From Sphagnum magellanicum (taxonomy: Eukaryota > Streptophyta > Sphagnopsida > Sphagnales > Sphagnaceae), in NCBI GenBank assembly GCA_021904315.1, contig CM038922.1, positions 5,245,347-5,309,346 of the forward strand: a stretch of DNA of 64,000 nucleotides. The letters run 5' to 3'. Of this stretch, positions 19,170-46,550 are shown piece by piece. The number at the start of each line of letters is the position of its first letter. The first letter of the stretch is position 1. The notes beneath the pieces are model-generated. The model did not search any database, was not told the origin of the DNA, and worked only from the letters and a program-made list of their open reading frames with translations. Both the position numbers and the translations under genes were made by a program.

Positions 19170-19977
19170 TAACACGAAATTAGGTCACCCAAGTATGAAC
19201 GCTGGCTAATCTTGAGATTTTTGTTGTTTTATTAGCCGTCATCTTATTACGGCGCCCCATTACTGTTGCATGGAAATGGGGGAAGAACGGAATGGAAAGG
19301 AGGCAGCTTGTGAAAAAAGCTTAGTAGAGAAGCTGAATGGAGAAGTAACAAGAAGTTTTTCAAGCAGGCAAATGGGAAGAGAAGGTGGGAGGTCTGCGGA
19401 AGGAGAGCTTCAAGTCTAGAGTAGTGTGGCTGATTTTTGGGAGAGATGTGTAGATCAGCACTGGAGATAACTAAGATAGGCAGATAGACAGAGAAGAACG
19501 AGGAGTTTAGAAGATTGCTAGTTGCTGATTTCTTCCGCTGCATTAGTAACTAAAGGATGGCTAGCTCCTGAATCTAGTGAGAGTCAGGTCGAAATTGAGG
19601 GTTGATGTTGTAGATAGGTGAAGCCTTGAAGGTGACTGAAGTTCAGGAAGGTGCATGGATAGATAGCTTGAGCAGTTTGTTTTTGGAGCGCAATGTTTAG
19701 CTGAGGAGTTGTTAGTCTGTTGATGAACGCACTGGAAAAAGAGGAAGCTTGTGCTCGTGGGGCATTTTGTAAATGAGGGCGTATGCAATCACACCTGTTG
19801 ATGTTGTGTAAGCGTCCATTATGTCTAAGTGAAGATTAGGGAGTGTGTGAGAACATTGTGAGGGAGAGAAAGAAAGAAGATCAGAAGTGTGGTTAGAATC
19901 AGGTTTTGATGAGAACTCAACTCTGCATAGTTCGTTCAGGTGCTTGAGGTTAGTTGTAGAATCTAGCACTCTCTTTT
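19170..19977 (+). repeat. 5' LTR
   Basis: It aligns without gaps to 22330-23137. I counted 14 differences, all transitions (about 1.7 percent). Confidence 0.9.
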
Positions 19978-19989
19978 TGGTATCAGAGC
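19978..19989 (+). other. Primer-binding site (initiator-Met tRNA type)
   Basis: TGGTATCAGAGC directly abuts the left LTR. This 12-mer is the common plant PBS complementary to the 3' end of initiator methionine tRNA. Confidence 0.92.
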
Positions 19990-20070
19990 AGGTTCCGACC
20001 AGGTGATTTTAGCAAGACCATGTGTTGTGGGAAGCGTAACAATTGTGGTTTGTTGCTGGATACTTGCAAA

Positions 20071-21338
20071 ATGACAAGTCCTCAGGGAATGGACGAGTTG
20101 TTTTGGGGACGAAATCATGAGGATGTCCACGACTGGGCGGAGCGGCTCACAATGGCTGCCGAGGTACGCGATCTCAATACTGACAAGCTATTCAAGATCG
20201 CCAAGCTGAATTTGTGGGGCCGAGCCAAAGAATGGTTCAAGCGGCTGTAGCCAGCGCCAGCTGATTGGAACAAGCTGAGGACGCTAATCGTGCAGAAATA
20301 TGGAGATGTGGATGCCGATGACATCAGGATGAAGCTTGATGGCATCAAGTAGGAACCCAGGGAGAGGGTTCAGAAGTACTTTGAACGTTTGGACAGGCTG
20401 TTTCAGAGAGGCCGAATACCAGACACCGAACAGAAACGGAGGTTTTTGGCCAGACTAAGGCCTGAAATTCGAAAATTATGCATCGTAAGAACTTTTGCTG
20501 ACATTGAGGAGCTGGTGGGTGCAGTTACCGAGCTCGAGCGAGTGCTGGGCGAGCTTGGAGAGACTCCCTTCGAACCACTGAAGGAGGAGCAAGAAGAGGA
20601 AGTCACTGAAATAATAATGGAAAAACAGGTTACTGCTTTGAACAACGCGCTTGTTAGCTTTTTCAAGAGGAATGTGCCGAGACCTGTCACACCATGTTCG
20701 GCGGATGCCAGATCTGTAAGGGAGGAGATCACATAGCCACAACATGTCCAAGGCTTAATGAACCCCGGCCAAAATGTGCCAGATGTGGGATGCCTCATAG
20801 GACAGAGAATTGTGGGATGAAGTGCTCTTTCTGTTCAGGTTTAGGACACTCGGAGGACAGATGCTGGAAGAAGCCGAAGGATGGGAAGGTGCATCCTGGA
20901 TCAACAAACTTTCTGGAAGTGTTGCTGAATGATGAGGGAGCAACAACAATAATTAAGGATAAGATTCCTGAACAACAACCTGTAAAAGAGTTTGCGAAAG
21001 CAACAGAAGTGAGTGAAAATGATGAGACCCAGGTTGTGCCTAAAGAATTGTTGATTGGGAGATTCAAGCTCGCAGAAAAACAAGCTTCTGCTGCAGAGCT
21101 TGAGGAAGAAGCAAAGGATAAAGTTCAGGATGTGATTCCTGAGCAAGAACCTGTAGCAAAGCTTGCAAAAGCAACAGATGGGATTGATGCAACAAACGGG
21201 ATTAATGTTATGATGGAAGATGTATTGAAGATGGCCGGAATAACCATTGGCCAAGAACTTAGACCAGAACTCGGTGCCACAAACAAGGAACTTACCGATT
21301 CAGCCGAAGACAGAATCGACACATTACTTGTTGAATGA
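20071..21338 (+). pseudogene. Retrotransposon Gag with three zinc knuckles, broken
   Basis: Structural capsid/nucleocapsid protein of the LTR element. Start chosen at ATG 20071 (MTSPQGMDELFWGRN). The Retrotrans_gag core follows: DWAERLTMAAEVRD, LNLWGRAKEWFKRL, VQKYFERLDRLFQRGR. Two TAG stops (20248-20250 and near 20350) both sit where Gln (CAG) fits. A frameshift near 20690 moves the reading into the second frame, which has CQICKGGDHIATTC (C-x2-C-x4-H-x4-C), a shortened CARCGMPHRTENC and CSFCSGLGHSEDRC. After 20900 the protein becomes acidic and repetitive, and it stops at 21336-21338 by a second frameshift into the next entry. Confidence 0.85.
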
Positions 21339-22282
21339 TAGCAGTGATCGAGAATGATACCAACATTGTATCTAAAGAGCCACCAGTTGACAGACTAGAG
21401 ATGTCAGAAGAACAAGCGTTTGCGGAGCTTCATGAAAAAGCAGAAGATGAAGCTGCTAATGTGATTCCTGAGCAAGAACCTGTAGCAGCAGAGCTTGCAG
21501 AAGAAGGAACAGACATGATTGATGTTCTAATTGAAGATGAACTTCAGGCTAGAATAACCCAAGATGAAGAATTCAGAGCAGAACTGAATGACACAAACAA
21601 GGAACTTGTTCATTCAGCCCAAGATGGAACCAGTGCAGATTTTGTTGAAGCAATATCAGGGATGGAGAATCATACACAGGTTGTATCTAAAGAGCCACCA
21701 GTAGACACCAGATTAGGGCTGCCAGAAGAGCAAACCTCTGCAATGCTTGAGGAGGAAACACAAGAAGGTTATAAAGTTGAGGAAACACCTGTTGTAGTAG
21801 GCCTTGCAGAAGTAGTGGATGGGGGGATTGAGGTTGCAAATGAAGATGAATTTGAGGAAGCTGGAATAACCCATGATGCTGAAGAATCCAGAGCAAAACT
21901 CATTGACACAATTGAGGAGCTTGTTGACTCAGCTCAAGACAAAATAGGTGCAAAACTTGTTGAAACAACAAGGGGGGTGATGGGATGTAAGAAGGCTCTG
22001 GTAGCATATGAGTCTGATGTTGCCAAAGCTTCTGAATACCTCTGGAAAAAGGGATTGGCAAGTGTGGAGAAGGGAAAACAGGCCATTTTTGAAGCTGTGA
22101 ATTGTGTAAAAGTGCATGTGCTGCTACAAGTCCATCAAATAGACAGTGATGACTCTCCCAACGGGTGTGGAAATTACCGACCATTCTCATGCTGCAGAAT
22201 ATACATCATCCAGGATGTTGATGGACGTCAGTGGGAAAGATCATGTCGGGATCTTCAAATCCATCACCTTCAACCAGACTAG
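21335..22282 (+). pseudogene. Acidic tandem repeats plus EF-Ts N-terminal-like domain
   Basis: Continuation of the gag reading after a small indel at 21335. Modules of roughly 100 residues recur (also in 20940-21330), built from VVSKEPPVD, EEQ-SA-LEEE, VIPEQEPVA, EDEL--AGIT, and TNKELVDSAQD-I-A-LVE. At 21962-22090 the sequence becomes VMGCKKALVAYESDVAKASE followed by YLWKKGLASVEK. This is the CKKAL ... D--KA-EYLRKKGLASA pattern of the UBA-like N-terminal domain of elongation factor Ts. That match is strong by eye. Capture from a host (perhaps plastid) EF-Ts gene is inference. The last 60 residues look frame-shifted. Confidence 0.7.
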
Positions 22283-22307
22283 ATGAAGCTGAGGGACTCA
22301 GCTGTTT

Positions 22308-22320
22308 AAGAAGGGAGGGG
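22308..22320 (+). other. Polypurine tract
   Basis: AAGAAGGGAGGGG lies 9 nt before the right LTR. This is the usual position and composition of the plus-strand primer of LTR retrotransposons. Confidence 0.75.
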
Positions 22321-22329
22321 TTACATATT

Positions 22330-23137
22330 TAACACGAAATTAGGTCACCCAAGTATGAACGCTGGCTAATCTTGAGATTTCTGTTGTTTTATTAGCCGTC
22401 ATCTTATTACGGCGCCCCATTACTGCTGCATGGAAGTGGGGGAAGAACGGAATGGAAAGGAGGCAGCTTGTGAAAAAAGCTTAGTAGAGAAGCTGAATGG
22501 AGAAGTAACAAGAAGTTTTTCAAGCAGGCAGATGGGAAGAGAAGGTGGGAGGTCTGCGGAAGGAGAGCTTCAAGTCTAGAGTAGTGTGGCTGATTTTTGG
22601 GAGAGATGTGTAGATCAGCATTGGAGATAACTAAGATAGGCAGATAGACAGAGAAGAACGAGGAGTTTAGAAGATTGCTAATTGCTGATTTCTTCCGCTA
22701 CATTAGTAACTAAAGGATGGCTAGCTCCTGAATCTGGTGAGAGTCAAGTCGAAATTGAGGGTTGATGTTGTAGATAGGTGAAGCCTTGAAGGTGACTGAA
22801 GCTCAGGAAGGTGCATGGATAGATAGCTTGAGCAGTTTGTTTTTGGAGCGCAATGTTTAGCTGAGGAGTTGTTAGTCTGTTGATGAACGTACTGGAAAAA
22901 GAGGAAGCTTGTGCTCGTGGGGCATTTTGTAAATGAGGGCATATGCAATCACACCTGTTGATGTTGTGTAAGCGTCCATTATGTCTAAGTGAAGATTAGG
23001 GAGTGTGTGAGAACATTGTGAGGGAGAGAAAGAAAGAAGATCAGAAGTGTGGTTAGAATCAGGTTTTGATGAGAACTCAACTCTGCATAGTTCGTTCAGG
23101 TGCTTGAAGTTAGTTGTAGAGTCTAGCACTCTCTTTT
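22330..23137 (+). repeat. 3' LTR
   Basis: Gapless match to 19170-19977 with 14 transitions and no transversions. Confidence 0.9.
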
Positions 23138-26403: not shown

Positions 26404-27250
26404 TTTGTTGTGGGTGGCATAACAATTATACTAAACACCATTGTTTTCACCAAAATCATGGTTCACTATTAGCCACCTTGTGCAAGGGTGGGGAAAAACT
26501 AGGCACAAAGGTTAGGTTCGATCCTTCAATATCAACTATAATTCCCCAATATATTTTCAAGGCCAACTAAACAAAGGCGTCCAAGGTTAAATCTTGGCAT
26601 CAAGTGGTAGCCAAACTTCACAACTTAGCCTCCTATTGTATTATGCCATTGATAGAGCATTAGTTTTCCCTATAAGTGTAGTTACAATTGATAATGAGGA
26701 AAAAGGTTTTCAATTTAAGGGGTTGTTGGCACAAAGATATTCTCCTTAAAAAATATATATTGGATTTAGGTTCTCAAACTTTGATGTTGGGCAAGGTAGC
26801 AATTAAAGGTCTTGGATGACTAATGTTAACTTGAAGCCATGACTTGTACCAAAATTTTACATCAATGGGTGGATAAGAAAGGGTTAGGATATTAATTAAG
26901 TAGGAAATTATGATTCAAGTTAATCCCAATAAACTAGTAGACTTGTTATACCACAGTGTGGGCATGAACAATAATTTCACTTGCCACATTTTATGATGTA
27001 CATAGTAGAAGAATGGCTTTGTATCATCAATTTTTGGGAAGAAACCACATATTATTGACTAGGATGGTAGACATGACACATTTGTAGGGCTTTGTTGCAA
27101 GTCTATTTCATTTGGGGGCATCTAAAAAAACCCACCTGGTCCACTATGTTGGTTGGATTGTCAAGGCTTCCCCATGGTTTGGACTTATTGGAAGGCAACA
27201 TCCATGATTACCCCATAGTAGTGACTTGACAATGTCAAAGGCAATGGAAT
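26404..27250 (+). pseudogene. Ty3/gypsy zinc knuckle and aspartic protease relic
   Basis: 26406-26450 reads CCGWHNNYTKHHC, a decayed C-x2-C-x4-H-x4-C knuckle. From about 26755 the protease region reads LDLGSQTLMLGKVAIKGLG. The catalytic Asp-Ser-Gly is D-L-G here. IMIQVNPNKLVD follows near 26910. It is the first enzyme of the gypsy pol that continues through the DNMT and RT pieces to the right. Many stops and frameshifts. Confidence 0.75.
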
Positions 27251-27454
27251 GCCATTGATTTCAATTTTTACATTAGATCCCATGCCACCTTGGTGTACGT
27301 TGTCATAGTTGTAAGCAACAACTAGCCACTACATTCATCAAGTTTAGCACATGGCCTCATCATTGAACCCATAGTTATTTGTGGATGCTGGTAATGGGCC
27401 ACCCTAATTGAGCCCATTGGATATTAAGGTTATCTAGTGGCACATTCCCAACGA

Positions 27455-27690
27455 TGAAATATGCTATTGGAATTGTTTGGATGCATCAATTTTGGTTTAG
27501 TTGTGGTTTTACATTTTAACATCCAAATGTAGAGATAACATTATGTTGAAAAGGATCTACAAGTTAGATTAACCTCCATGCATCATGCCATCATCATTAC
27601 AAAACATGTTTTAAAAGTTTTTTAAATGAAAAATGTGAAAAATGATAGATGTAAAAAAGATCACCTTGTCAATTTGGACATGCCATTGTG
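27455..27690 (+). pseudogene. C5-cytosine DNA methyltransferase, motifs I-II (gypsy-borne)
   Basis: 27461 onward reads MLLELFGCINFGLVVVL. This is the cofactor-binding motif I of C5 DNA methyltransferases (ELFGGIGTGL), with two glycines lost. Near 27540 YVEKD gives motif II, followed by a HH pair. It lies just after the gypsy protease and in the same orientation. The remaining motifs are found in order at 34200-34935, so the domain has been split by about 6.5 kb of other DNA. Confidence 0.75.
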
Positions 27691-27829
27691 ATTGGGGTAG
27701 TCTTGGGGTAGTCTTTTTTTTTGGTAAAATAAGGGATTATTTTATTAAACATTTTGAATGGTAAATAATGGACCATTTGGCTAATCAAAATTTTACCTTA
27801 ATTTAAACCATTTTTTTTTATTATTTTTA

Positions 27830-28400
27830 AAATTAGGTAGGTAGATAGTAAATAGGTTTAGGTAGGTAGTAAAAAATAAGTAGGTAGATAGGTGGTTAGT
27901 TTTGCCAACATAACTTAAGCCTACCTACCCTAGTCCTTTAAACATACACATAGGCTACAAGTATAAGGAACCCCTCACCTTCATAATGATAAACCAAGTC
28001 CTTGCCAATGGACTTTGGAAAAGGTGACAATTTTTGTGAAGTTTTATTTATTTCACATCACTATTTATGTAAGTAAATAAAAAAGTTAGGTAATTAGTAA
28101 ATAGGTTGGAGGTAGGTTGCAAGATGATGGTTAAGTATATGAAGTAGGGGTGGGTATTTAGGAGGTAGGAGGTAAATAGGTAAGTAGATAGATATAAGTA
28201 TATGATAGTTAAATGTAGATAGGTAGATGGGTAGACCCAAGCTACTTATTTAACCTAGCTAATAGTTAGGTAGGTATGTAAATAGGTAGGCCTTGGTAGG
28301 TAGATTTAAGTTGCCTGCTTATTTAAATATACCTACCTAACTTAGGTAGTAACTAAATAGGAAGGTAGGGGTAGGTATGTAGGTAGATTTAAACTACCTA
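27830..28400. repeat. Interspersed TAGG/CCTA tetranucleotide array
   Basis: Many short blocks of TAGGTAGGTAG and CTACCTACC are separated by AT-rich spacers. Similar arrays recur in the CACTA-like elements at 37.3, 40.3, 42.1, 43.8 and 52.6 kb. Confidence 0.85.
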
Positions 28401-29665
28401 CCTAGATTAGGCAATAGTTAGTTAATTTGACCTATTAATTAACATAGGATTGTTGGGCCCCAATGAACTTAACCTCGTTTTGGTTAAGCATAAGTAAGCT
28501 GACTAATGAAATATTGGGGTTAACTTGAGGCTCATGGGAGAGGATAATTAATGGGGTGATCTTATCTAAGGTCGACTTCTACAAGATGGGTGGTTTGGTT
28601 AAGATAAGGTGGGGGTAAGATTATTGGATTAGGTTAAGACATGGTTATCTTGGCCTAGTTGGATAAGTTTGCTAGATAGGAGGTATGGATATGGTGTGAG
28701 CCTTTGTTCACCACCATCATTTTCCAAAGCCTCATTATTAGTTACATTTTAAATTATTAATAGTTTAAGATAAATAAGGGTTACATTTTAAAAAAATTTG
28801 CCCATATAAGTTTTCCAAGTTGTTCAAAGCTTATTAATTCAACTTTTGATAATTATGTAATTTTAAATTTGGATAGCCTTAATTATAGTATAGGGTGTTC
28901 CATCATTTTGCATCTTCAAGCTAATAGGTTCATTCACACACATTTGCATTGTTCAAATCTAGTTAAGCCTTGGATCAATGAAGTTGAATTTAGTTACTAC
29001 ACATTGGAATTTGAACATGTGTACGTTTATGGGTATTAACCTTTAGCATTAACATTTTGAAGTAGAGTTTCAATGGGTCAAGCCTATGATATAATTGAAG
29101 CATAAAAATCAAAACAAAAACATGTAATGGGCATAATATGTAATATGAGAAAATTAGTGGTCCATTAGTTTTATGAATCATCATCAAGATGGCAAAAGCC
29201 TTGAAAGGAACTCAAGAAAAGATTTAATAATTCTTGAGGTAGTTGGATAAAATGCATATGCAAATAGATAAGTAACATGAACTTCTCCACATTTTTACAA
29301 ATTCCTACAAGGGATACAATGGCATGACCATCATGTCATTAGACCATAGCCTAACATATATTCATTCTATTTGTAAGAACCCCAAGATACGATGGATAAT
29401 GTGCACACATAGTTATATTTTACGATTAGTCGAAATCTGAAACAATGGACTATGCAACCATCGATAATGGCCTAATCTAGGTTTTGCAAATCACATTAGA
29501 ACATTAATTTCATCCCATTTGTAGACACCTTCATACAAAATCTCTAGTTCACCATTTATAATAGGTTTGACTTTTAGCACCAAAACGAAGGAACGTGCAT
29601 TGGCACCCAACCTCTAGTGACATGATCTAGTGATGTGTTTAAACTCTAGGGTGAAAACATACTTA

Positions 29666-29687
29666 GGGGGGGGGGGGGGGGGGGGGG
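29666..29687 (+). repeat. Poly-G tract, 22 G
   Basis: An uninterrupted run of 22 G in otherwise AT-rich DNA. Length may be affected by sequencing. Confidence 0.9.
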
Positions 29688-30039
29688 CAAAAATGTTGTC
29701 ACATTATACTGTTTTCTAGGGGTGTCCATGTTTGAACTTCAACCATGATAATATTAGAGCATATTTTTTCAAACTTTTTATATAATATGGTAGATTATAA
29801 CACAAAGAATTCAATCACAAAGATTTTTTTTTCAATTTATATCGTGCAATTCCAAAGTATATTTGTGGCAAAAAAATGTACATCACTATCTACTAAAAAT
29901 GCAAATATATTTTTAAAATGATTGAAATGATTTTTTAATTTTTATGAAATTTGTATTATCTACTAAACATTGTGATTCCATGTGATTGGAATAAGTTTGT
30001 GAGTCATGTGAAGAGTTTGATAATTGTCATATCACAAAT

Positions 30040-30860
30040 GGGTGTTTTTGGAGGTGATGACCATAAGTGTTGCAACCCCACTTTGAGGGAGTTGTGAGGT
30101 CGCCACTCACACTCCCAAAAATGGGACTTGGGAGTCCTCTGAGACTCCCGAAAACTCAGAGCATGATTGTAGGGGTCAAAACACCTTGCATTGAGGCGTT
30201 CTTTATACCTTTGGAAAGGTCTTGAAGTGTAGATGTCCAAAATGGCCTCGCATGAGCCATTTGGACATCTATAGCACAAGTTATGGTCGAAAGAAAGGTC
30301 GGGAATCGACCCAACTCCGGTGTGTGCAAATGAAGTGCAACACATCGTTGGAAAGATCTCAAGGAGAGCTACAACTTTGGATTAGACCTCGTCCCGATCC
30401 GAGTTTGGGGTGAGAAGTTATGAACGCCCAAAGTCCCAGGAGTTCTAACTGGGACAGTTTTGGGACTACACTTTGGGAGTCCTGGGGAAAAAAGCCATTT
30501 GGATGCAAGTACGATGGAGAGCTGCAGAGAATACTATATGGGGGAAGGTGGTGGCTTCCCCCAAGTCCAGGCCGTGGTGAGTCAAGTGAGTCGAAGGTAA
30601 CTCGTGGCTTGTCCCAACACCAAAAGGGTGCAAAATGAGTTCTAACCAACTTGTTGGTTGGATTTGGATGCAGGACCGTATAATTGAGTAAGCTTGTCCC
30701 TCTTCCTAGTCTATCCCGGAGCTTTTAGCACGCCCCTCTCACCCCCTTTAATGCTAGAAGCTAGGAGCGTGCCCCGAGTCCCAGAAATTCCGCAATTTGA
30801 ATGACCTAGCCCCAACTTGGGGCTAACTTGGGACTTGGGAGTGCGTCAATAAGTATGTGG
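30040..30860. other. GC-richer island of unknown identity
   Basis: Base composition changes sharply from its surroundings. GGGACTTGGGAGT occurs at 30123-30135 and again, nearly entire, at 30830-30842. Open frames exist on both strands but match no family I know. It could be a fragment of an LTR or another element. Confidence 0.4.
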
Positions 30861-32170
30861 TAAATTAACATTTTGACAAACCATCACTTTCAAATGGAAG
30901 ATGACAAGATATGTGGAGTGGGCCATTTTTTTAAATTTTCATTTCAAACATCTTTTGGCTAACTAATTCAAACCCAAACCTAATGTAGTCGAAAAATATA
31001 AACATGTTATATTATAGTGTATATATCATAAATATCTCATTAATCCTTGAATTTAAGCTTTAATTTTCAAATAATATAGATATCATTAACTTTGTGAAAA
31101 TTAAAATATTAAGTTCAAACACTAAAAGTGAAACCAAAAATTAAATGCAATATGTTTTGCAAAAATATATTTTACATACATGTTGTGAAAGTGACCAAAG
31201 TGGCCCCGTTGTAATGCGATTTCACCTTTTAGTCAAAGGCACGTTCTTCTTTTAATAGGTTTTTCATGTTTGGGCAATTGTGTTAGATTCAAATCAAGAG
31301 GTGATTCATGCTTTTCATCATTTAGTGGTGCAAATTGAAGTTCATACTTTCTGAAATTGTTTGCCATTTTAACAAACTAATTATTCCATGAATTCTTGTT
31401 TCTTCAACTATAATTGTGATTAAGGTTAACAGGTTCAATTGATAGCCACAACAATGGTAATCAAACAAAATGCCTAGTTTCGACAAAATTGATGAAAAAC
31501 CTAGATTGAATGATAGATTGAGTGTGATGGAAATCTTGTGGTAGGAAATGTATTTTTTAACTTTACTATGTACTACATAAATAAGTAGTACATGGGAAAT
31601 AATAATAATATGTACTAAATGAATGAATAATACATGGGTTGAAAAGAAGGTTATTAATGTTTTAGGGTTGACTTAATCAAAGAAAAACCAAAAGATATTA
31701 CTTTTTACTATTAGTAAATTATCCTAAAGGTTAGTTACTTAAAAAGGACTAGGATGAAAAATTAGGATGTTGGGGCCAATTGGATAGAATTGGCAATGAT
31801 CAAGCTCAAGGCCCATCAATATGACCAAGGTAAGAAAAAAAATGTTTCCTCCAAATTCATTGGTCATGAAGATTATTATCCTATTTTGAGTGCAAGATGG
31901 AAATTTTTTTTGTGTTCTCATTGGGTACAAGGATTCTCATCATAACCATCATTGGAGGCCATTGATTGAAAGGAGGGATTTCCACAAGCTTTCATTGGCC
32001 AAGGGAAAATAAGTTCAAAGAGGGGTCCTATGGGTGGTTCCTTGAATTTATGATATTTTGCTTGTGCTGAAAAAAAGGGAATTATGATTTGGAGTGGAAT
32101 TTTGACACGAAAGTGTTAGATTGAGGAGGAGAAAATGTTATGATTGAACAAATTTTCTCTTCCTTGAAAA

Positions 32171-32520
32171 TAGTCTCTAGATTTTTTGTTCTAAATTCAA
32201 GATCTCCTAATTGCAACAATGGATTAGTTTAAAAATGGAGACAACGTTAAATTAATACTCAATGCATCTTCACACAAAATTTCAGCCTCATCAAACTTTT
32301 TTTGGGAGAGATATAATTGTTAGAAGTAAAGGGGGTTTGTTATGAATCCGTCTTAGATGTAGTCTTTGAACTTTTTGTTTTAAATTCAATATCTCCTTAT
32401 TATAACAATGAATTCATTTAGGAATTAAAACAATGTTAGAGTATTTAAAGTATCCTCACACAAAATTTCAGCCTCATCAACCTTTTTGTTGGAAAGATAT
32501 AATTGTTGGAAGTAGAGGGG
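32171..32520. repeat. Tandem duplication, about 165-bp units
   Basis: 32171-32335 and 32360-32520 are diverged direct copies sharing CACACAAAATTTCAGCCTCA, GATATAATTGTT and AGTA-AGGGG. No coding content. Confidence 0.75.
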
Positions 32521-34199
32521 ATCTATTGTCATTTTTTCCCAATGTTGTCAAATTAATTCTTGGGATTTAAAGGATATAATTTGATTATCAAAATAAAAAC
32601 ATATGAACTTTTGTATGAGTGTTGCCTCTAAGATTAACTTTCCAACAACCTTATGCTTGTTAGATTTGAAGGTTGTATAAAGACGTTATCGCAATTGGAG
32701 CAAGGGGGGGTCAAATTGTCAAAAAAGATGAACTTCCAACTCGAACACAACACAACACTTCTTCACATCTTATCATCGTAAGTACATTGATTTTTTACAT
32801 CTTTTGGAACTAACTACATGGACATAATGCCATAGGTTCCTTAAGTGATTCATTACCTTCCATTCAACCACATCTTTACTTGTTAGAATATGACTATATA
32901 ATGATTCCACCCCTGAATGAATTTTGTGAATTGCATGTCTCTAAGTCGAAAGGTGTGCACATAATCCTCACATATGATAGAGGGAGATTTTAGGAAGGCA
33001 CTAGAATTTAGGTTTAGATCAAGATAGTAGTTGTTATTTTTCTAAAGCTTGTTAATTGCTTTCACTTTCATGAGTGATGAATAGTGTGCAAGACAGTGGG
33101 AGGGAGTGAAAAGTGATGATGAATAATGTGAAAGATGGGCTAATAGGGGGATTGGATATATCATGAAAAGGTAATATCACATGAGGAGGCCATTGCATCA
33201 TGAGGAGGTGGGTGCTGCCCAAATGCATTCAACTAAGTAGAAGTGGAGGTGGAGGTTGCGGTGGAGGAATTGCTAATGGGTGATGGTGGCTGTTCAAGGG
33301 TGATTTTGGTGAATGTTTCCATTCAAAGGCTAAGGAGGGAAAAGGTACATAGACCTTGTGCTAGGCTTGGTAAAGGAAGTAAAAAATGAAGATGAAAAGA
33401 AAGAAGGGGTTGACTTGAAGAGGAAATAAAAGGTCCACCCTACTGTGGGGAAATAAGAAAAATATATAGGAAGAAAAAGTAGAAGGTATGCCCTCTTGTG
33501 TGAGAGCAAGGGCAATAAGAAGAGGAGGATTGGTTTCAAGGAGTTTGAACATGTAATGTTTGTTAATAAGGTTGGGAACACAAAAAATGAAGATTTCAAA
33601 GAAAGAAGGTAGCGGTGCTTATAGGTAAGAGAATGTTGTATCAAGCATTAGTAGGAGCTTGGTTGGAGTAGGAGATCCATAGCTAGGGACTAAGGATTCC
33701 AATGTAATTTTTTTTTTCTTTTTCATGTGTGAAGCTTTGATTTTAGGAAATCTTATTCCAATCATTACATGTTGTGTGTGTTCCTAGTTGTAATTCTCTA
33801 GTTTAGGGTTGTGATTAGTTATACATGAACAAAGGGACATGGTTGTGAACAAGGAAGGTAATTGCTATGTAGATCAAACAAGGCACGATGGAGTAAAATA
33901 TATATAGAAAGATAGAAAATTCATTTCCTAACTATGACACCTTTTGGATGTCTTCCAAGGGGTCGGGGGGGATCATGGCTTAAAGTAAGTTGTTAGGCTC
34001 AACTAATTTTGTGTTTAACAAGGATCTCCAAGTTGATTAAAAAACCATTGGTTATTTTGACAAAACATGTTATTTTGTTTTGTTCAACTTAACTAAATGT
34101 CTCACTTGTCAAAACCCATTGGCCATTTTGATCATAATGGTCAATTTTTTGTTCAATTTGATTGGATGTGCAATTTGACAAATAATCAAATACATCATT

Positions 34200-34935
34200 A
34201 TAGTCAAGTTCACCTACCAAATAACATCACTTTGCTACGGTGTCAAATTTGACTAGGATTGGGTCAATTGATTTGGTCATTTTAGGACGGCCATGTTAGG
34301 GTGTTTCATAGGTTGGTGCATGCCAAGGACTTTCAAACCCCATATTAGGATTATTAAAAAATTAATATGGATTTTATAATATGTGTAGGTTCAAATGCAC
34401 TTATGTGTATACTTGTTGGAGAATTTTCCACTATTGGGATATTTTCTATCAATTGTTTTGGTAGGATGATAATATATATTGGATTGGCAAAATAGTGTAG
34501 GTGGATGCTGCAACAATTAATTCACGTGCCCATTGGTTTTGGTGGATTAACTTAGCACCACCAATGGTGATCCAATGAACAAATTACCTCATGTTAAAGT
34601 CACCCATGTGCTTAGTGGATGACATATTAAATCCAACATGTTAGTCATGCGCTTCACTATGATGACTAACCACATACAATGGTCGATAGGGTTGGACTTC
34701 CACTATCATCCTTACCAACATTTTAAAATTTTCCACATTTTTGATCATTTTGAAATGGAGGCCTAAAGATGATTTTAGAATCCAATTCATGTAGTATTGA
34801 AGAGTTAAATGTTAATGAAAGGGAGCATGCCATGCGTTTCCATAATAGTTCCATTATTATGTTAATTACTTTAGAAGGAGTTTGTAGGTAGACTTTAAGG
34901 TAAGTTGTGGACATTAATTGCTTAGATACTTATTT
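34200..34935 (+). pseudogene. C5-cytosine DNA methyltransferase, motifs IV-X (gypsy-borne)
   Basis: The catalytic region reads IDLVILGRPC then a TAG, then GVS (34267-34308). This is motif IV, GWPCQG; the catalytic Cys codon is 34294-34296 and the Gln is now TAG. GLSNP follows. LLENFPLLG at 34413-34439 is motif VI (ENV). VDAATINSRAHWFWWINLAPP at 34501-34560 resembles motif VIII. LNVNEREHAMRF near 34802-34840 and VVDINCLDTYF near 34898-34932 resemble the C-terminal motifs (ERE-AMGF, GQAMDLN). Five motifs in order make the family call firm. Stops and shifts make it inactive. It is followed directly by gypsy RT. Confidence 0.83.
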
Positions 34936-35997
34936 TATTATAAATAGAACATATACATTTTGCTTGATCACACCCACTTATTCCACCCAAGTTATCACAT
35001 GTTGCACCTTTAGTTGGGATTATTGTATCCATGCAAAGGGGGTGATATTACAACAACAAAAATTATACATCCTTGTAAGTTATGGGATTAAGAACAACAT
35101 GAAAGATGCATGGGTGTGGGGAAGGAAATTGGGGATGTGGGGGCACTGAGGTCAATTGGCACTTCCCCATCTTATGTGTAACAATCATAGGTAATATTTT
35201 CATCCTTAGGCAACATGAATAATTTGTCATCCCAACCAAAAATACAAGTGATAATACAAACATGGGATCCAAATAATAGTTTTTTTATAGGAGATGAGAT
35301 GCATAAAACAAGATAATTAAACTACTTGATCATGTTGGATGTTTTGCCTTCAATTTGAAGGAATTAGGTTAGTTGAAAGGACAAGAGGTTTGAATCATAT
35401 TGGAGGATGATAATCCAATTTTTAAACAACCTTATAAGCTTAATGATGTGGAAAAGGCCTTGGTTCAAGTTCAAATAGTATAATTGTTAGATGTCGGTAT
35501 GGTAAAATTATATAGAAATGAGTATGCTTTAACAATGGTGATGTTAGCTAATAAATATATTTTTGGTAATTGGATTAAATGTTACATGTGTGAGGATTAT
35601 AGTCCAATGAACAATAAACACATTTGGACAAATGTCATTCCCTTACAATAAAGATCTATGATGCCTATGGGTAGGCCAATTAACTACCATTAATTGCCAT
35701 TGAGGGAAATAAAGTTAAAACAACTTTATAGGGGATTGATTTTCACGAGAAAGATTATTTGTACCAATGGTGGTTCTTACTATTTAAAATAAAAAATATT
35801 TTTGTAGAATTTCAAAGGGTTACATCACAAATTTTACCATGCTTCATAGGTTCAGATAAATTCCATGTGAAATTCGGTTTTCATAAGTTCGTACAAAAAT
35901 CACATGAATTTCATGTTGTAGCTAATATAAACAATATTTGTATGTAGTCAATATCTTATATATTCAAATGGATAATTATTATTTTTTGAATGACATA

Positions 35998-37755
35998 CAT
36001 TAATAGAAATCTTATCATTTGCAACCAGTTATTATGCAACTACATGCAACTAGGTGTTGTTTGCAACTACATTGGTTGTGTGTATAATTACAAAATTGAT
36101 ACAATATAATTTTGGGCCATATGGTTGTGTGTGCAACTAACATGCAACTAGTAATGTACAAAATGGAAACGTGTCATAAAAATCACAACCTAAACTAATA
36201 CATACCTACATCAATATACTAAATATATTTACTTAGGCTATGTATGATAGTCTCATAACTTTAATACTAAGGTTAAATTCATATTAACTAATGCTACCCA
36301 AGGCAACAAATTAGCTAAACCTAGGCCAAACTCACATTGGCTAAACTAACCATATTTAACAAACTAACTTTGGCTAAATTAACTATGGCTAAACTAAATA
36401 AATTAGTTACGAGGTTAAATTAACTAGTAAATTTAAAATTTTAGTTAATTTAATTACGATTAGTTGACCCAAAATTAATTTACTATTTAAAATTTTAATT
36501 AGGATTTATTTTAGAAAAAAATAGTTTATCCATCATTAATTTAGCCTTGTAATTAATTTGGCCATGGCTAATTTAAGCAAAATCATTTTATCCAAAAATT
36601 ATTAATCAAAATTAATTTAGCCCAAAATTTTTATATTATATTATTATCATTATAGTTAATCACATACAATGATTTTAAAATAATTATAATTGTACTTATA
36701 ATAATTAACATTAGTATTTAATAATGACTTGATTATTATTATTATTATTATTTGATGGATATTATTTAAATATTTTTATAATATTTTTATTTATGGTATT
36801 ACGTTTGTGGTTAGTAAATTACATGGGTTAACATATGATTATCTATTAAATTATTTATTAATAATTATTTAAATTAATATAATATTTTATTTATGATTAT
36901 TATTATCGTCCTTAATTTTTATTATAATAATATTATAGTATTGATCATTAATTATTGTAAAAATCATAATTATTAAAACATTATTATAATTATAAATATT
37001 TATATTTATATTTATTCACCAATTAATAATATCATCATTATATTATATTATTATTACTTATTATGTTTTAATACTTATACCTTAATTAATTTTATCTAGT
37101 GGGTAAATTAGGTTAATATGGTTAATTACATGTAGGTTGTAATTATATTGGTTACACTTGCAACTGAAATTTTTATCCCATAGTTTTTTGCCATGGATTC
37201 CAAATGTGCACATTATATAAATAAGTGCATTTGATTTGTTCACAAACCAAGTACCAAATGCTATTTGGGATGGGCCAACGAAAAAGGTTCAACCCAAAAA
37301 CAAGATTAGATTATTTTAAATTTACCTACCTACCTACCTACCTAATTCAAAAACAATAATTAATGAGTTTTAAAAATGGTCACATGTCACCACATAATTA
37401 GCCTTCACAAATGGACATGTCTCAAAATCCAATTCACCTTTTATTGGATGGCCAAGATATTATTAATTTATTAATAACAATGAATATTAAAATAATGTTT
37501 AAATGTCACATGTCACCATATAATTGAGCTTCACAAATGAACAGGTGTCACCATGGGCAACCCTTGTAAAATAATGTAAATGTATAAAGTATAAATTCAT
37601 ACCATACATACTATCCGCATACATATTGTCATATGTAAATGCTAGTTGTGTGCAACTTGTCTTATGCAACTATGGGGTCTAGTAGTTGCATGTGTCACAT
37701 GCAATTAAAAATTAGTTGCATATGGTAGTTGCAAAATGACATTTTTTTTTTAATG
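35998..37755. mobile_element. Non-autonomous CACTA-like element, 1.76 kb, nested in MITE
   Basis: The left end is CATTAATAGAAATC. The inverted right end is CATTAAAAAAAAAATGTC. ATA occurs on both sides (35995-35997, 37756-37758). Subterminal TGCAACTA motifs cluster at both ends, and the interior is AT-rich and non-coding with a CCTA array at 37321-37342. The MITE sequence continues across it, confirming the boundaries. Confidence 0.82.
37321..37345. repeat. CCTA tetranucleotide array
   Basis: A perfect run of ACCTACCT units about 410-435 bp from the right end of the enclosing CACTA-like element. Confidence 0.9.
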
Positions 37756-38457
37756 ATATGTGAATGTTCATAATTAATACACAAAAATCACACAATTTTA
37801 TGCAAAATTGCATCACGATAATTGCACGAATTTAATTAAAATGTAAATTATACATGTATTTCATATCAAAACATCATAAATAAATAAGACACACATTTAT
37901 ATAGAAGTTATATATATATTCGTTTTTACATTTTGAAACCCACGGGTTTTGCATTTGAATATTTTTTAATGATTTCGCATGGATTTTATTGAAATTTTTT
38001 ATATTAGAAATTTTGATGTATGGATTAGGTGTTGGTAGGTCTAAATTTTGTTAGTCAATACTTTCATGACATTAATGTTTCTAGTTTAACTCCATGAACT
38101 CACATGTGACGTTTGTTGGACTTATTTGAGAGATGTAAATAATAAAACCTTTAATTGCATCATTGCAAGTGCCAATTCTTTCACATTCAAGTCAAATATT
38201 TGGGTCATATAACTTAATGTAAGTGAATTAGGGGTTTAAAAGGCCAAGGTTGAAGTTATTTCATAGGTTCTTCAATAATCAAATGTTAATTAATTATAAG
38301 TTTTCATAGGTTTGCATATCAAAGGCTTGTTAAGTAATTTAATAACATTGTTAAACCTTTAACCCAATTGACAATTTTGATTATGAATACATTTGGGGTG
38401 AAACATAAAAACGATTTTTTTCAAGAATTGAAAGTTAAGCTCACATTATCACCTATT

Positions 38458-40885
38458 CACTCATAGAAATTGGCCAAATTTTAACCATTTTATTTATGAC
38501 AACATGTAATTATTAATCATTTGCAACTATTTTTGGACGTTTTTGTAACTAGTTCTTATGTTGGTCATACTTGTGACTACACTACACCTAATTTGCAACT
38601 ATTGTGGTTTTCATCCTCCCATGTGAACAACATTTAGTTTGATTTTTATCCAAGAAAAACAACTTATGTGCCATTAGCTGCAAATGTGACCAAATTAGTT
38701 GTAGCCCTATGAGTATGTAAAGGTGTATTTTGTGTATTCTAATGCATATAGTTGGATATATTTGAAGTTACAAATGTATATTTTGAATGCATATGAATGG
38801 CCATATTCCATGTATATTCAAAAATTATTATTAACATTAAATGGCTTCGATATTATGGATACATTAGGTGTATGTTTTGAATGTATTAAAATTTTATGTA
38901 GGACGTTTATTAAATGTATTGCAAACCATCTTACAAATTGATCCAAGTTGCCTTATTCTAATTTTTGAAATTATTACAAATAAAATTCATTATTATTATT
39001 TATTTATTTATTCTATTAATTATTTTATGATAAGAAAAATCTAATTTTAAATATTATTTTCGACTAAAATTAAGAAGTAATAATATTTTATATTATATAA
39101 TGATGATGATGAATATAATTTTCAAAGGACTAATGTACTTATTAAAAATTAATTAAATTTTTATTATAAAGGTTGTAATACCTATAACAAGTGACATAAT
39201 AATATATGTAATAATAATAAATAGCTAACGTAAGCTACTTACATATAATGTTATTATTATTATAAGCAATAAGTTATTAAAAATTATTACATTATTATAA
39301 TAATTTAAATAGTTAATATTTAGTTTTTAAGTTAACAATTCATAATTATTCAATAATTATAAGTAATTACCATAATTTTTTCATTTTCATTTTTATTATT
39401 TAATTAATTTATAATAATTATTATAATAGCTAGTAAGGATATTCATTAAATTATTATATAAATGAAAAATTATATTTATTGAATATTTATTATAATAATT
39501 CATAAATAATGATAACAAGTGAAATAATAATATGAATAATAATAATAAAATAGCTTGCCTTGGCTCTCAACTAGTTAGAATAATAATTCAATTAATGTTA
39601 TTGCTATATTTATATTTATACATTTATATTTATGATTATCTATAAAAATATAAAAAATTGGAGTAAATATAATAAAGTAGTTAACCTAGCCTAGGCTAAC
39701 TATTAATTATATAATTAGAGTTTTAAAAACAAGCATTTAATATTCATAATTAATAGTTAATTAAATTAGGTGATAGATCAAAATTGTTAATATTTAATTA
39801 AAATTAAATACGTACTACTATTTATTTATGTAATATACCTAATAATTTTTAATAATATATATTATTATAATTAAATTTCTCATCATATTATTATACATTT
39901 AAATTTATTGATGATTATTAGTATAAGTAATTAGTTAATTGGCTAGTTTATTAGTTTATTAGTTTATTAATTAATTAAGTAGTTCACAAGCTAGTCACTT
40001 ACCTATTGAATTATATAATTAAAAAAATGAAAATGAAATTAAAAATATGGGATAAACTTTTTTGTTGTAAGTAGTTTGTGATTAAACCTTTTTTTGTTGA
40101 AAACTATTTGCAACTAAAAAGTTTGTCCCATATGTTTTGTTTTTCATTTTCATCTTGAAAAGTATATAAGGTGTAAATTGTCTTACATTTTCATATTTAA
40201 AAACATGGACATATGAGATGAATATATCAAAAAGGCTTAACCCAAAATAAAATATTAATATTAATGTACCTATGCCTAACTTACCTACCTCTTTAACCCA
40301 CCTACCTACTTACTTAAGTAGGTATTTAACTTAGGTAGGTAAGTAGGTCCTACCTAAATAGGTGTCTAACTTAAATAGATGGGTATGTAGATCCTACCTA
40401 TGTATTTATCTACCTATGTAGGTAGATAAGCATGGGGATTAGGTACCTACCTACCTATATACCTAAATATTTATTTAAATTTATTTTGAAAGAAATCAGT
40501 TAATATGCCACATGGAAATTTCTATTGCACTGCATGTCATAATCTAAAACTATTTAAACATAAAAACTAAATGTCTTAAATTATTTCAAAATTATAATAA
40601 AATTATTTGAAATTATTAAAAGGTGGGACATATGGCAACACATCACTTGTTCCCATTGTTCACCAAAATAATCACATCCTAATCACAAACAATAATATGT
40701 ATATGGTTAGTCAAAGGATGAAAATGCATCTTGTTGATTTTATTTTCATCCAAAACTCCTTCTCGTTTGCAACTAGTGTTGCATGTGATTTGTCCAACAT
40801 GACTTACAATTTTAGTTGCAAATGTCACCAACAACTAAAAATTAGTCATATAAACTAATTGCAAAATGGTCATTTTCTACTAGTG
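38458..40885. mobile_element. Non-autonomous CACTA-like element, 2.4 kb
   Basis: The left end is CACTCATAGAAATTGGCC. The inverted right end is CACTAGTAGAAAATGACC. TATT lies on both sides (38454-38457, 40886-40889), one base longer than the usual 3. Subterminal words include TTGCAACTA. The interior is AT-rich and non-coding with a TAGG array. It splits gypsy RT/RNase H between SPI and LQQP, which rejoin cleanly when it is removed. Confidence 0.8.
40262..40470. repeat. TAGG/CCTA array
   Basis: Blocks of CCTACCTACC and TAGGTAGGTAAG, 415-620 bp inside the right end of the enclosing CACTA-like element. Confidence 0.88.
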
Positions 40886-41713
40886 TATTTTGCAACAACC
40901 CATCAAGGGGCAACCTTTTTAATTGTACATGAATTGGAACACTTTAAAGTTAAGAGTCATTTTTACTCAATTTGATGATGATGGTTGACAATTTGTAATG
41001 GTTTATGCCAATTGGTCCAACAACAAGGTGAAAGAAAAATATAATTCATATGAAAGGGAATGCCTCATTATTGTTTGGGAAGTTTTTTCGTTCCAATGTT
41101 ATCTTTCTTGTAGTCCATTCACATTGGTCATGGGATATTCATGAATATGTAGTTATTATTGCATATTTGCACATAGGTGAAATTTGGATTGGATTCACAC
41201 CCAAGGAACATGACTACATTGTGCATAGGGCCAAATAGTTCAAATGGGAAGGCAATTCTCTCATGTAAGTGTGGATGGAGGATGAGTGTGGGTTGTGCTT
41301 TGTCTAGAGCAACATGAGGGCCTTATATGGCATGTTCACAAGGAAATGGGTCACTTTGGGTTTTGACATGCCTAAAGTTTCTTTTAACAAAGGATTTAGT
41401 TGTAGGTTCAACAATTTGTTTCATAGTGTGTGGTGTGTGATTGAATGTAAACGTCATTCAATACATTCATCTACAACCATTGCCCATTGTGGGGCTTGGG
41501 TATCAATGGAGTTTCAATTTTGTTAGCCAAGTAAATTTGTTAATTCGACATAGTATGTTTTGTTATGATTCAAGTGGTTGGAGTTGATGTTAGTTCCAAT
41601 TTGTGATAATGAGGGAATTACACACACATTTTTGGACAAGGTGTTTAGTAGGTTTTGTGCACTAAGTGAAGTATTCATCAACCAAGGTACAAAATTTCAT
41701 GGGGAGTTCCAAA
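40886..41713 (+). pseudogene. Ty3/gypsy RNase H and integrase start, decayed
   Basis: Resumes with LQQPIKGQPF, then FTQFDDDGWQFVMVYANWS, YNSYERECLIIVWEVFSFQC (RNase H) and PFTLV. Near 41320 HVHKEMGHFG matches the H-x4-H zinc-binding start of integrase. Near 41660-41713 EVFINQGTKFHGEFQ matches the second catalytic Asp block of integrase (here N instead of D). It is cut at 41713 by the next element. Confidence 0.82.
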
Positions 41714-42049
41714 CATTATAAGGAATCCTTAAATCTATGATTATAGTAGTTATGATTGATATTGTAGTCATACCAAAAATTATATGACTAAGGGGCCTTT
41801 AGTCATGCTAGAGAAGTTTTGTTTAAGACAAGAAGCCATTGAATGTTCAATGTGGCATTTTTCATTTTGTAATCATAAAAGGACCATTGTCAAGTTATAT
41901 AGAACAAATCATAGAAGACAAGTAATATATATTCCTAAAGTTTCATGGTAATGAATGACTAGAATATGATTAGTAAATAATGGAACAATTTGATTGGTCA
42001 AATTTATATTTACATTAAAATATATATTTTGGATTGTTATAAAAAATAA

Positions 42050-42125
42050 AATTTAATAGATAGGTAGGTAGGTGGTAGTTTAACCTATTTAACTAATTAC
42101 CTTAATATAACCTACCTACCTTAGC
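42050..42125. repeat. TAGG/CCTA array
   Basis: AGGTAGGTAGGTGG and CCTACCTACC about 340-410 bp from the left end of the enclosing element. Confidence 0.85.
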
Positions 42126-42188
42126 TTTTTAAGAATGCACGTAGGTTGGAAGTATTAACAATTGAATCTCTCAACTCCCCAAGGATTA

Positions 42189-42609
42189 CATCACAAACTT
42201 ATTAGGCTTAATAAGTTCATACAATTTCATGTAAATTTTGATTTTCACAGGTTTGTAAAAAAATCTCACAAAATTTGTGCTTTGGTTAATATGAAATATA
42301 TTTGTATGTATCCAATATCTTCAAACAAAAGAGACATTGTTTTTTAATGACATACGTGAATGTTCAAGTTTAATATAGAAAATACATAGTTTTATTCCAA
42401 ATTACATCACTTTAATTACATGTATTTAATTAAAATTAAAATTATACGTACTTCACATAAGGACATCACAAATAGAAAAGACACATCATTTATACAAATA
42501 TATATATCATTTCATTTTTACATTTTGAAGCCCACGGATTTTGCATAGATATATTGTTTTATGATTTTCACATTCTATTGAAATTTTATGATATTATCAG
42601 TTTATGATG
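42189..42609 (+). mobile_element. TA-flanked MITE copy 2, 421 bp
   Basis: Begins CATCACAAACTT and ends TTTATGATG, with TA on both sides (42187-42188, 42610-42611). Homologous along its length to copy 1 (for example CAATATCTT, AATGACATACGTGAATGTTC, TTTTGCAT). Non-coding. Confidence 0.8.
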
Positions 42610-42704
42610 TACCAAGTTTATTCATTAATGGACTTTACCATCAAGAGGTGTCTAATTATTTTTTTCAATTTTATTTGATATGTTTATTTGATATCATTAC
42701 AAGA

Positions 42705-42830
42705 CCACAAGGTAGGTGGTAGGCAAATTGTATGATGGTAAGTAGGAGGTGAGTGGGTGGATGGGTGGGTGGATTGGGGGCAGGTAAGCAAAAAGGTAGG
42801 TAGGTGGGTGGGTCGGTTGGTAGGTAACAC
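42705..42830. repeat. GGTAGGTGGGTGG array
   Basis: A run of TAGG and TGGG units between the MITE and the interior of the CACTA-like element. Confidence 0.85.
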
Positions 42831-43505
42831 AATAACATATCTTGGGTTTTATAACCAGTTAATAAAACAACTATTGTCTTTTTTTTTATAATTGTAACTA
42901 CAAGTTCATGTTAATGACTATGTCATTCGAAAGGACACTATGGTGCCATGAAGCATGATGGTTTTATGATTGCAGTTAATATCACGACTTCATGGTTTTA
43001 CACAAATATCAAAGTTTCAAAAATGTATTTTTGATGTATTTTTAATCATCCAAAATTAGGTAATAACAAGATTCCATTTATTCTTGCAACTTTTGGTGAA
43101 TAATAACTTATGGTTGTGTGATGTTGACATGACATGCCACATGCAATGAGGTTGACAACACTTCATGGCTTGTGACACTAATTTCACGATCATGATTCAT
43201 TTCATTGAATTGATGAATTAATTTCATTTATTAGTTAATTGAAAATATTGTTGTCCTTTGCGAGTAATAATGACTCGATTTTCCATGTGATGATAACATG
43301 GCGTGCCATTTGGCAACAAGGCGTCATAAATTTTCATGGTAATCCATGATTTTTGTGACATCATAAATTTTTGTGTGTCTTGAATTTATGGCACCAATAT
43401 TTGTCATGGCATGCCATTAATTTTCATGTGCCATGAGGTTTTTGAAATCATGAATTCACATGCATATGTATGTGTATTAAACAATCTATTGTTAAATTGT
43501 AATTA

Positions 43506-44341: not shown

Positions 44342-45352
44342 CTTATGATACCTAGGCCACGTGGCTTAGGTTAAGAAGTCTAAACTAGGCTTCTTGGGTT
44401 AGGAATCTAATGTTTGTTTTTAATTTAAGCCATATACCCTAGGTTGTTTAACATAAGTAATTAGCCTAGCTAGGTTAAGTTAGTTTGACTTTTGATTAGC
44501 AAGTTAAACTAGGTTGTTTAGCCTAGTTAGGTTATGCTAGGTTGACTTTTGATTATGTTAGTTACATGGGTTGAACTAAGTTGACTTTTGTTCATTTGCA
44601 ATGACTCATAACATGTTTATAGATTTTTGACACATGTCATCCATCCATCAAGGTATCTTTTGTAACACTTAGTCAAATAAAACAACTAAGTTGAGATGAC
44701 ATGTACTTTACACATCATACCAAAATTAGTGATAACATGGAATTTCATTATAATGAAAAAAAATTAAAATCCAAATTGTTAAAGTGACCAGGCTTTACAA
44801 TTGAACATCCTTTGCAATTAAATGGGTAAAACAACATGGGTTTAACAACTCATTAATCACTAGTCGCATATGTCTTTTTTTATTTGTATGTATTTGTAAA
44901 GGTCAGTTGCAAAACCCAAAATGTGTTGTTATGTAAATAGGTAGGTAGGTGGTCATGACATTACCCATGTCATTATACATTAATCATTTTGTATCCAATT
45001 TCCAACTAATTCCTCATATTATAGTCATTTCAAAAACATTTAAAACTACCATGTCATCATTATCCATGTCATGTTAAATAATAATAATTTTAGAATCATA
45101 TAAATGACAATTAAAAATCCACATCACTGTGTCCTTTGTCATGGATGTCTTATCAATTAAAAAAATTACGAACTAATGATTTCATTATTACCATATGTAA
45201 CATTATCATCCATTAGTGACAAAAACAACTCATTTATGACTATTTGTTTTTCCACATAGGATTAAAAGTTATATTATATGAGTATAATCATTCATAGAAT
45301 CATGGAAGACTTCTAATCATCTTGGTTACAAAGGTAAAGATTCCTTTTAGTG

Positions 45353-46350
45353 AAAAGTTGTGTGAGAAAACACTAATTGATCATTAAACAATTTCACAAG
45401 ACCATTTTGAAAGCACGTGGGTTAGTTCAGTGGATAGTGCAGATGGTGAAACAATGTTTACAAAAGTAAAGGTTTCAACAAGGCTATACTAGAGATTGAA
45501 ACTTGTAATTATCATGGTCAACCATGGGATATAGGTTGAGTTGACAAGCTTTTCTTACATCCTTTACACCATGTTTTCTAATTTTTATCCATGAGCCCAA
45601 ACTACTAGCCTCAATTCGTTGCAATATGATGGAAATAACTAATTTGGATGATCTATATGTATGATTTTATGCACATGTGAATAACATGTCATTATATTCT
45701 AACATGTAATGTTAATGGTTACATCATACATTTTCAATATCATGAAATTTCAATAGAATCCGTGTGAAAATCATAAAACAATATGTCCATGCAAAATTCG
45801 TGAGTTTCAAAGCATAAAAATGACATGTATTTTCTACTTATGACATCTTGATGTGAATGTGGACTTTACATTTTAATTAAATCCATGCAATTATTGTGAT
45901 GTAATTTTGGTGTGTTAAATATGAACATTCACATATGTCATTCAAATATAATGTATCATTCATTTGAATATTTAGGATATTGAATACCTATAAATACCGT
46001 TCATATTAACCATAATATGGAATTCATGTGATTTTTACAATAACCTATGAAAATTGGATTTTGCACAAAATTTATATGAACTTATGAAGCTTGGTAAGTT
46101 TGTGATGTATGAAGAATTTGGTAATTTCTTAGCATCAAGATACATTATGTTATGTCACTATTTAAAGAGGTGGTTATCAACCTTGAATTCACAAATTCAA
46201 GATAAGAGATTATGTATGTTTATAACAACATCAACTACGTTGGATGTAGGATGTGTTTTTTTGCATGTGTGAAAGGTATTACCTTTGACAATGTTATTAT
46301 TGGAGGGCCAAGGTAGCGAGATATGGAAAAGCCATGTGCAAAATTGAAGT
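45353..46350 (+). pseudogene. Ty3/gypsy integrase C-terminal part, interrupted by a MITE
   Basis: Resumes with LCEKTLIDH, then near 45490-45570 a decayed ETCNYHGQPWDIG block and near 45590 HEPKLLASI (conserved REP-LPSSI). After removal of the MITE 45722-46107 and one TA, the reading continues MVMKNL, HQDTLCYVTI, RGGYQP and DYVCL at 46108-46220, matching the region after the integrase core of this gypsy lineage. LLLEGQGSEIWKSHVQN follows at about 46292-46345. Many Gln positions are TAG or TAA. Confidence 0.8.
45722..46107 (-). mobile_element. TA-flanked MITE copy 3, 386 bp, inverted
   Basis: Reads CATCATACA at the left and ends TTTGTGATG, with TA on both sides (45720-45721, 46108-46109). It is the reverse complement of copies 1 and 2. 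Its removal restores MVM-KNL in the gypsy polyprotein. Confidence 0.8.
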
Positions 46351-46404
46351 TTGTCTCTTCCTAATGTGGATGGCCAAATTGACCCCTTTTTGGCTTTTGT
46401 CTTT

Positions 46405-46550
46405 GTTGGCCTTCAATGTATATTGTGTGAGCAATCTTTAGGGGCAACAATTATGTTGGTATGTGACCAATGTTCAAGAGGTTGCATATGGGATGCTTGA
46501 CACCACCTTTGAATGAATAAATTGGTAAATGGTTCTGTTTTTTATGCATG
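46405..46550 (+). pseudogene. PHD finger at the gypsy polyprotein C-terminus
   Basis: PHD fingers bind histone H3 tails. The sequence gives QCILCEQSLGATIMLVCDQC, then SRG; allowing one missing base near 46483, WHMGCLTPPLNE follows, and after one stop IGKWFCFLC. All eight zinc ligands are present (C-x2-C, C-x2-C, H-x2-C, C-x2-C; codons at 46417, 46426, 46462, 46471, about 46485, 46494, 46536 and 46545) with the usual Trp two residues before the last Cys pair. It follows the integrase directly and in the same orientation, so it is most likely the C-terminal domain of the gypsy Pol. Confidence 0.8.

Follow-up and report, generated by a model that had tools for sequence, protein, structure and literature searches.

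A stretch of 64,000 nt from the moss Sphagnum magellanicum (assembly GCA_021904315.1, contig CM038922.1, positions 5,245,347 to 5,309,346; C16:5245347-5309346 in the genome searched) is referred to here as the window. It contains what is almost certainly a dead copy, riddled with insertions, of a Gypsy-type long terminal repeat (LTR) retrotransposon, with the remains of a DNA methyltransferase (DNMT) between the protease (PR) and the reverse transcriptase (RT). Very probably the element is of a Gypsy type whose polyprotein carries a DNMT3-class C5-cytosine methyltransferase between PR and RT and, behind the integrase (INT), a PHD finger, with a proposed mode of action by self-methylation. It is a land-plant member of an already known kind of element. 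Two families of relatives in the same genome (438,994,042 bases, 31 contigs), termed A and B, were used for comparison, and the window copy probably belongs with, or near, family B.

In tblastn searches with family A and family B proteins, PR, both halves of the DNMT, RT, RNase H (RH), INT and the PHD region map onto window positions 26583-46482, all on the + strand and in element order:

26583..26816, + strand: aspartic protease remnant with DLGS in place of D-S/T-G (tblastn with the family B open reading frame L033, E=1.3e-6)
27464..27586, + strand: N-terminal half of the DNMT, motifs I and II, two internal stops (tblastn with L033, E=0.002, 44% identity)
27587..34245, no strand assigned: later insertion or insertions, about 6.7 kb, dividing the DNMT (none of the element proteins used finds a match here)
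34246..34924, + strand: C-terminal half of the DNMT, with motif IV (PC-TAG), motif VI (LENFPLLG, in a different frame), motif VIII and the C-terminal motifs (tblastn with L033, two stretches, E=2.7e-16)
34297..34299, + strand: TAG stop immediately 3′ of the catalytic Pro-Cys (read from the sequence)
35322..35836, + strand: RT, first part (tblastn with family B RT, E=4e-20 and 1.9e-7)
38020..38373, + strand: RT, second part, beyond an insertion (tblastn with family B, E=1.5e-11)
40887..41129, + strand: RNase H (tblastn with family B, E=2.7e-20)
41134..41718, + strand: integrase, zinc-binding part and start of the core (tblastn with family B, E=5.8e-10 and 3e-14)
45352..45652, + strand: integrase core, second part, beyond an insertion (tblastn with family B, E=1.5e-13)
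46112..46482, + strand: C-terminal region of the integrase and start of the PHD finger (tblastn with family B, E=9e-24)

An earlier note, made from the letters of the window, had placed DNMT motifs in order and on a single strand between a gypsy PR and RT. The matches bear this out, and the limits it gave, 27455-34935, are correct within about 11 bases. The catalytic PC-TAG it described is present in the sequence, and the copy is dead, as had been said: the DNMT stretches display 13 stops altogether in the L033 alignments (11 of them in the C-terminal half), as well as frame changes and the dividing insertion. The Ty3/gypsy identity is supported by the PR-RT-RH-INT pieces, in order in the window, and by the rve integrase that Pfam recognizes in the same-genome copies L039 and L040. 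A Marchantia protein, P0021, also matches both DNMT halves, at 27440-27586 (E=7.6e-4) and in the C-terminal half (E=2.5e-15). Most window parts resemble family B more closely than family A (42% vs 33% identity for RT, 52% vs 29% for the C-terminal stretch), and in the RT tree the window copy is closest to P0021 and family B, in a fork whose order the tree does not settle. A pair of inverted repeat arms, 77% complementary, is found at 35834-36004 and 45927-46097, right where two insertions into the element have their borders; these are perhaps two copies of a single transposon in opposite orientations.

Taken by itself the window is weak evidence, and at the level of sequence the proof is the comparison with better-preserved copies from the same genome. 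The DNMT motif chain is visible by eye in three-frame translations. Pfam gave no match with the three whole window frames, nor with ten window pieces, RT pieces among them. The earlier note had counted the absence of a Pfam DNA_methylase match from both halves against its own claim, and this absence is literally what the direct scan shows, but both halves are proven by the same-genome tblastn (E=2.7e-16 and 0.002). In a home-made frameshift-aware scan, a kind of search the earlier note had proposed, with a profile of DNMT3A and eight phage enzymes, the top match of both strands is motif IV, at 34243-34389, with a score that 2 first-order Markov resamples in 60 equalled or exceeded under either of two settings (Gumbel p ~0.02), but the N-terminal half (p ~0.3) and the part past motif IV (p 0.36-0.65) are at chance level with this profile. 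The C-terminal DNMT piece of the window is misplaced when aligned with DNMT3A. A PDB search with window pieces found DNMT3B/3C only at E ~0.9, ranked under antibody chains at 0.03, and other PDB searches were empty. In the protein database none of 17 candidates for the RT piece reached E<=0.01 and none of 33 for the motif IV-VIII piece reached E<=1. Viral contigs revealed no relative; none of their 22 ELFGGI-like stretches is accompanied by a DNMT, RT or INT match at E<=1e-3.

The better-preserved copies display the complete arrangement. Family A is the most numerous family, and its locus L039 is a single open frame of 2379 aa with the order GAG-PR-DNMT-RT-RH-INT-PHD, in which Pfam detects protease, DNA_methylase, RVT_1, RNase H, integrase and PHD, and a zinc-knuckle gag is seen by eye. 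All seven parts are found by tblastn in 11 of 11 family A loci, with gag partial in L042 and PHD partial in L041. The genome search for an intact PR-DNMT-RT order, proposed in the earlier note, found it in all 11 family A loci examined and in two of three family B loci. The third, L034, has DNMT-RT, with PR unmatched within the 3.3-kb locus. The family B copy on C14 (L051) shows DNMT-RT followed by RH, INT and PHD. The DNMTs of the two families are ~42% identical. Searches with the family A DNMT point to at least 120 genome places (121 rows) at 78-100% identity; those with the family B DNMT (at least 122 rows) yield four places at 93% or more, with more groups near 60% and 40-50%, and a PF00145 search of the genome gave at least 124 matches, host genes among them. 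The claim of a land-plant copy holds as well, and the moss's own genome has many better-preserved, DNMT-bearing relatives.

The DNMT of the element is conserved across copies. A listed DNMT is found up to 4 kb upstream, on the same strand, at 104 of 144 family B-related RT places, a count that drew on 121 of 121 family A rows, 47 of 122 family B rows and 36 of 124 PF00145 rows. By identity band these are 4/4 at 90% and above, 20/22 at 60-90%, 9/23 at 50-60% and 71/95 under 50%. Six of the 40 RT places without a listed DNMT were inspected: four hold most of a DNMT, one has its C-terminal 55 residues, and one, L057, has no DNMT within 3 kb. Young copies devoid of a DNMT, named in the earlier note as a finding that would tell against it, did not turn up among the copies checked. 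Pooled pairwise NG86 ratios of nonsynonymous to synonymous substitution (dN/dS) in 11 family A copies chosen for long open frames are 0.21 for GAG, 0.56 for PR, 0.14 for the linker, 0.25 for DNMT, 0.32 for RT, 0.30 for RH, 0.23 for INT and 0.11 for PHD; at least one stop is present in GAG in six of these copies and in DNMT in four.

The terminal repeats of the relatives do not have the plain LTR-internal-LTR layout. In four of the 11 family A loci, repeats designated A (311-315 bases) and B (172-186 bases) are arranged A-coding-B-A-B, and L040 displays A-coding-B-A as far as the end of the locus. L043, L046, L047 and L048 have A and a single B, L039 has a single B with its 5′ side outside view, and no terminal repeats were found in L041. 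In the family B copy on C14, A and B are likewise repeated, and the 3′ copy of A has an additional stretch. The elements have TG...CA ends, and 4-base target duplications are seen by eye in seven of eight loci with both ends visible (L042, L043, L044, L045, L048, L050 and the family B copy on C14, not L047). The short form A-coding-B, without the second A-B, is that of L043, L046, L047, L048 and L039, of which L043 and L048 have 4-base target duplications; this form may be a product of recombination between B repeats, or another integration product. Between its two A copies L040 shows no difference over 310 bases, other A pairs are 96.8-99.0% identical, and the family B pair is 98.6% identical over 287. 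The two copies of an LTR are equal at insertion. If the same holds for these repeats, some insertions would be very recent.

Among solved structures the closest family to the element DNMT is DNMT3 (E=5.8e-12 and 7.8e-9; DNMT3A 5.8e-12, other classes 6.6e-5 or weaker), and in the same-genome copies the motif order I-IV-VI-VIII is unrearranged. As judged by these similarities, the enzyme is DNMT3-like. Its motif IV reads WPCQ in family B, where the window has PC-TAG.

With the L040 DNMT as query, 36 of 3244 protein candidates are at E<=0.001, and relatives are found in Marchantia, Closterium and metagenomes. The DNMT follows RT and/or RH in 26 of the 36 and is located before RT or after PR in eight (P0005-8, P0010, P0021, P0039 and P0040, with RT visible downstream in three); two are undecided. 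PHD is matched in 23, and motif IV is ECQ in 19, PCQ in 10 and unmatched in seven. In the DNMT tree a single clade (100/98) unites the 26 after-RT/RH relatives; family B is joined by Marchantia P0021 (99/99) and family A by P0005 (100/100). The after-RT group is likewise together in the RT tree (99/100), so that the main split is common to both. When three host exons, DNMT3A and phage enzymes are put into a smaller tree, eight retrotransposon DNMTs stay together (100/98), apart from the host exons, which we take to be DRM-like. At the C-terminus of the P0012 polyprotein, which has DNMT and PHD, residues 1958-2000 show a weak match to a D12 class N6-adenine methyltransferase (E=0.0037, under the cut-off), possibly two DNA methyltransferases in one element; P0017 resembles P0012 by eye.

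The window also holds remnants of two further gypsy-type RTs, at 14277-14801 and 63054-63970, not close to the DNMT elements. At 19170-22629, two 300-nt direct repeats, 98% identical, surround gag-like open reading frames with zinc knuckles (by eye); no RT is present in the open reading frames listed there, and the end of the last one has a weak EF-Ts_N match (E=0.17, under the cut-off). The whole may be a non-autonomous element that has captured a piece of host sequence.

As to function, the DNMT would be made within the polyprotein, and the element's protease would cut it free or leave it beside RT. It may then methylate CG sites of the element's new complementary DNA (cDNA) before or at integration. 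New copies would thereby begin methylated and be kept quiet by host maintenance enzymes, and the PHD finger may steer the integrase toward chromatin bearing certain histone marks. That a retrotransposon should methylate DNA seems paradoxical, because methylation silences such elements. The DNMT is rather likely to be catalytically active in at least one family; that self-methylation of cDNA is its main role is put forward tentatively. Several points weigh against the proposal. WECQ replaces PCQ in all 11 copies of family A, the most numerous family, which makes activity of the DNMT uncertain. CpG depletion of the elements (0.25-0.38) falls in about the same range as that of host-gene loci (0.27-0.36) and window flanks (0.25-0.38), and the CpG counts showed no footprint of self-methylation. 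The choice of dN/dS copies by long open frames should also be considered. Finally, a search for GAG and for terminal repeats in the window copy found neither, so that the copy is assigned to a family by protein similarity.

The DNMT may instead have been kept for a non-catalytic, DNMT3L-like task, such as binding DNA, RNA or host DNMTs, perhaps blunting host silencing. The substitution of WECQ for PCQ in 11 of 11 family A copies and 19 of 36 database relatives, despite purifying selection, is consistent with such a task, but these enzymes retain the cysteine along with the remaining motifs (LFGGI, EN, R-x-R), and family B has WPCQ; we consider it rather unlikely. An action on element RNA in place of cDNA, as in DNMT2, is improbable: an RNA target has been proposed for another retrotransposon DNMT in the accessible text of PMC5890265, but the same text reports CG methylation for the DIRS enzyme, and the nearest solved relatives here are DNMT3A/B, not DNMT2. 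A single chance capture of a host DNMT fragment by the window copy only has nothing but the window itself in its favour and is refuted by the at least 120 DNMT places in the genome, the presence of a listed DNMT upstream of 104 of 144 related RT places, the relatives in other plants and metagenomes, and the single clade of retrotransposon DNMTs apart from the three host exons. Chance motifs in AT-rich decayed sequence would agree with the lack of a Pfam match and the weak p values of a distant profile, but the two halves match at E=2.7e-16 and 0.002 and seven more stretches lie in order, which refutes this reading.

The preferred reading thus is a Gypsy-type element with its own DNMT3-class enzyme, proposed to methylate itself. 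A broader and more speculative suggestion is that one old Gypsy clade, extending from charophyte algae to liverworts, mosses and further relatives, combines a DNMT3-like writer with a PHD reader and writes its own cDNA methylation. The DNMT would have moved once inside Pol, from a place ahead of RT to one between RNase H and INT, and many members would use an unusual Glu-Cys-Gln motif for catalysis; the "independent" acquisition in K. nitens would be one branch. Retrotransposon DNMTs are not an algal oddity and now extend to land plants. In a small chromosome-scale land-plant genome that has at least 120 places with a related DNMT, some of them close to intact, self-methylation is directly testable with methylomes, and the PHD pairing and the WECQ variant pose testable questions on targeting and catalysis.

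DNMT-bearing retrotransposons of algae and dinoflagellates were already known, as the earlier note had stated (PMC5890265, de Mendoza et al. 2018; PMC12344493, whose accessible text places DNMT3 in retrotransposons of streptophytes and dinoflagellates). Literature searches for Sphagnum, moss, Marchantia, fern and conifer, with most subscription papers outside their reach, gave no land-plant report of such an element, and the main text of PMC9946827 has no mention of methyltransferase, gypsy, DNMT or retrotransposon. Two database proteins have the GAG-PR-DNMT-RT order found here: Marchantia polymorpha MARPO_0084s0073 (P0021), a partial entry with a predicted protein that lacks the motif IV stretch, and a Closterium sp. 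NIES-53 protein (P0039), which is distant (29% identity) and has WECQ.

According to the accessible text of PMC5890265, KnitGypsy-Dnmt3 of the alga Klebsormidium nitens has the Gypsy domain set, with a Dnmt3-type DNMT inside its Pol reading frame that is under purifying selection, and A-coding-B-A-B repeats as in DIRS elements. The moss relatives share the Dnmt3-class DNMT inside Pol and the purifying selection, and four family A loci and one family B locus (relatives, not the window copy) have the same repeats. The host is an alga in place of a moss, and the likeness drawn here is one of domain content, selection and repeat layout. That text also describes retrotransposon DNMTs as methylating CG de novo, with CG methylation given for the DIRS DNMT and RNA suggested as target of another. 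SymbioDIRS-Dnmt3 and SymbioLINE-Dnmt of Symbiodinium, described there, are likewise DNMT-bearing, and SymbioDIRS also has A-coding-B-A-B repeats; however, the former is a DIRS element with a tyrosine recombinase and the latter a LINE, whereas the moss elements have an rve-type integrase, TG...CA ends and 4-base target duplications. The word PHD is absent from the main text of the 2018 paper, and a PHD finger is present in the moss elements. Thus what goes beyond that text is the PHD finger here and, in the relatives, the WECQ variant and a second position of the DNMT.
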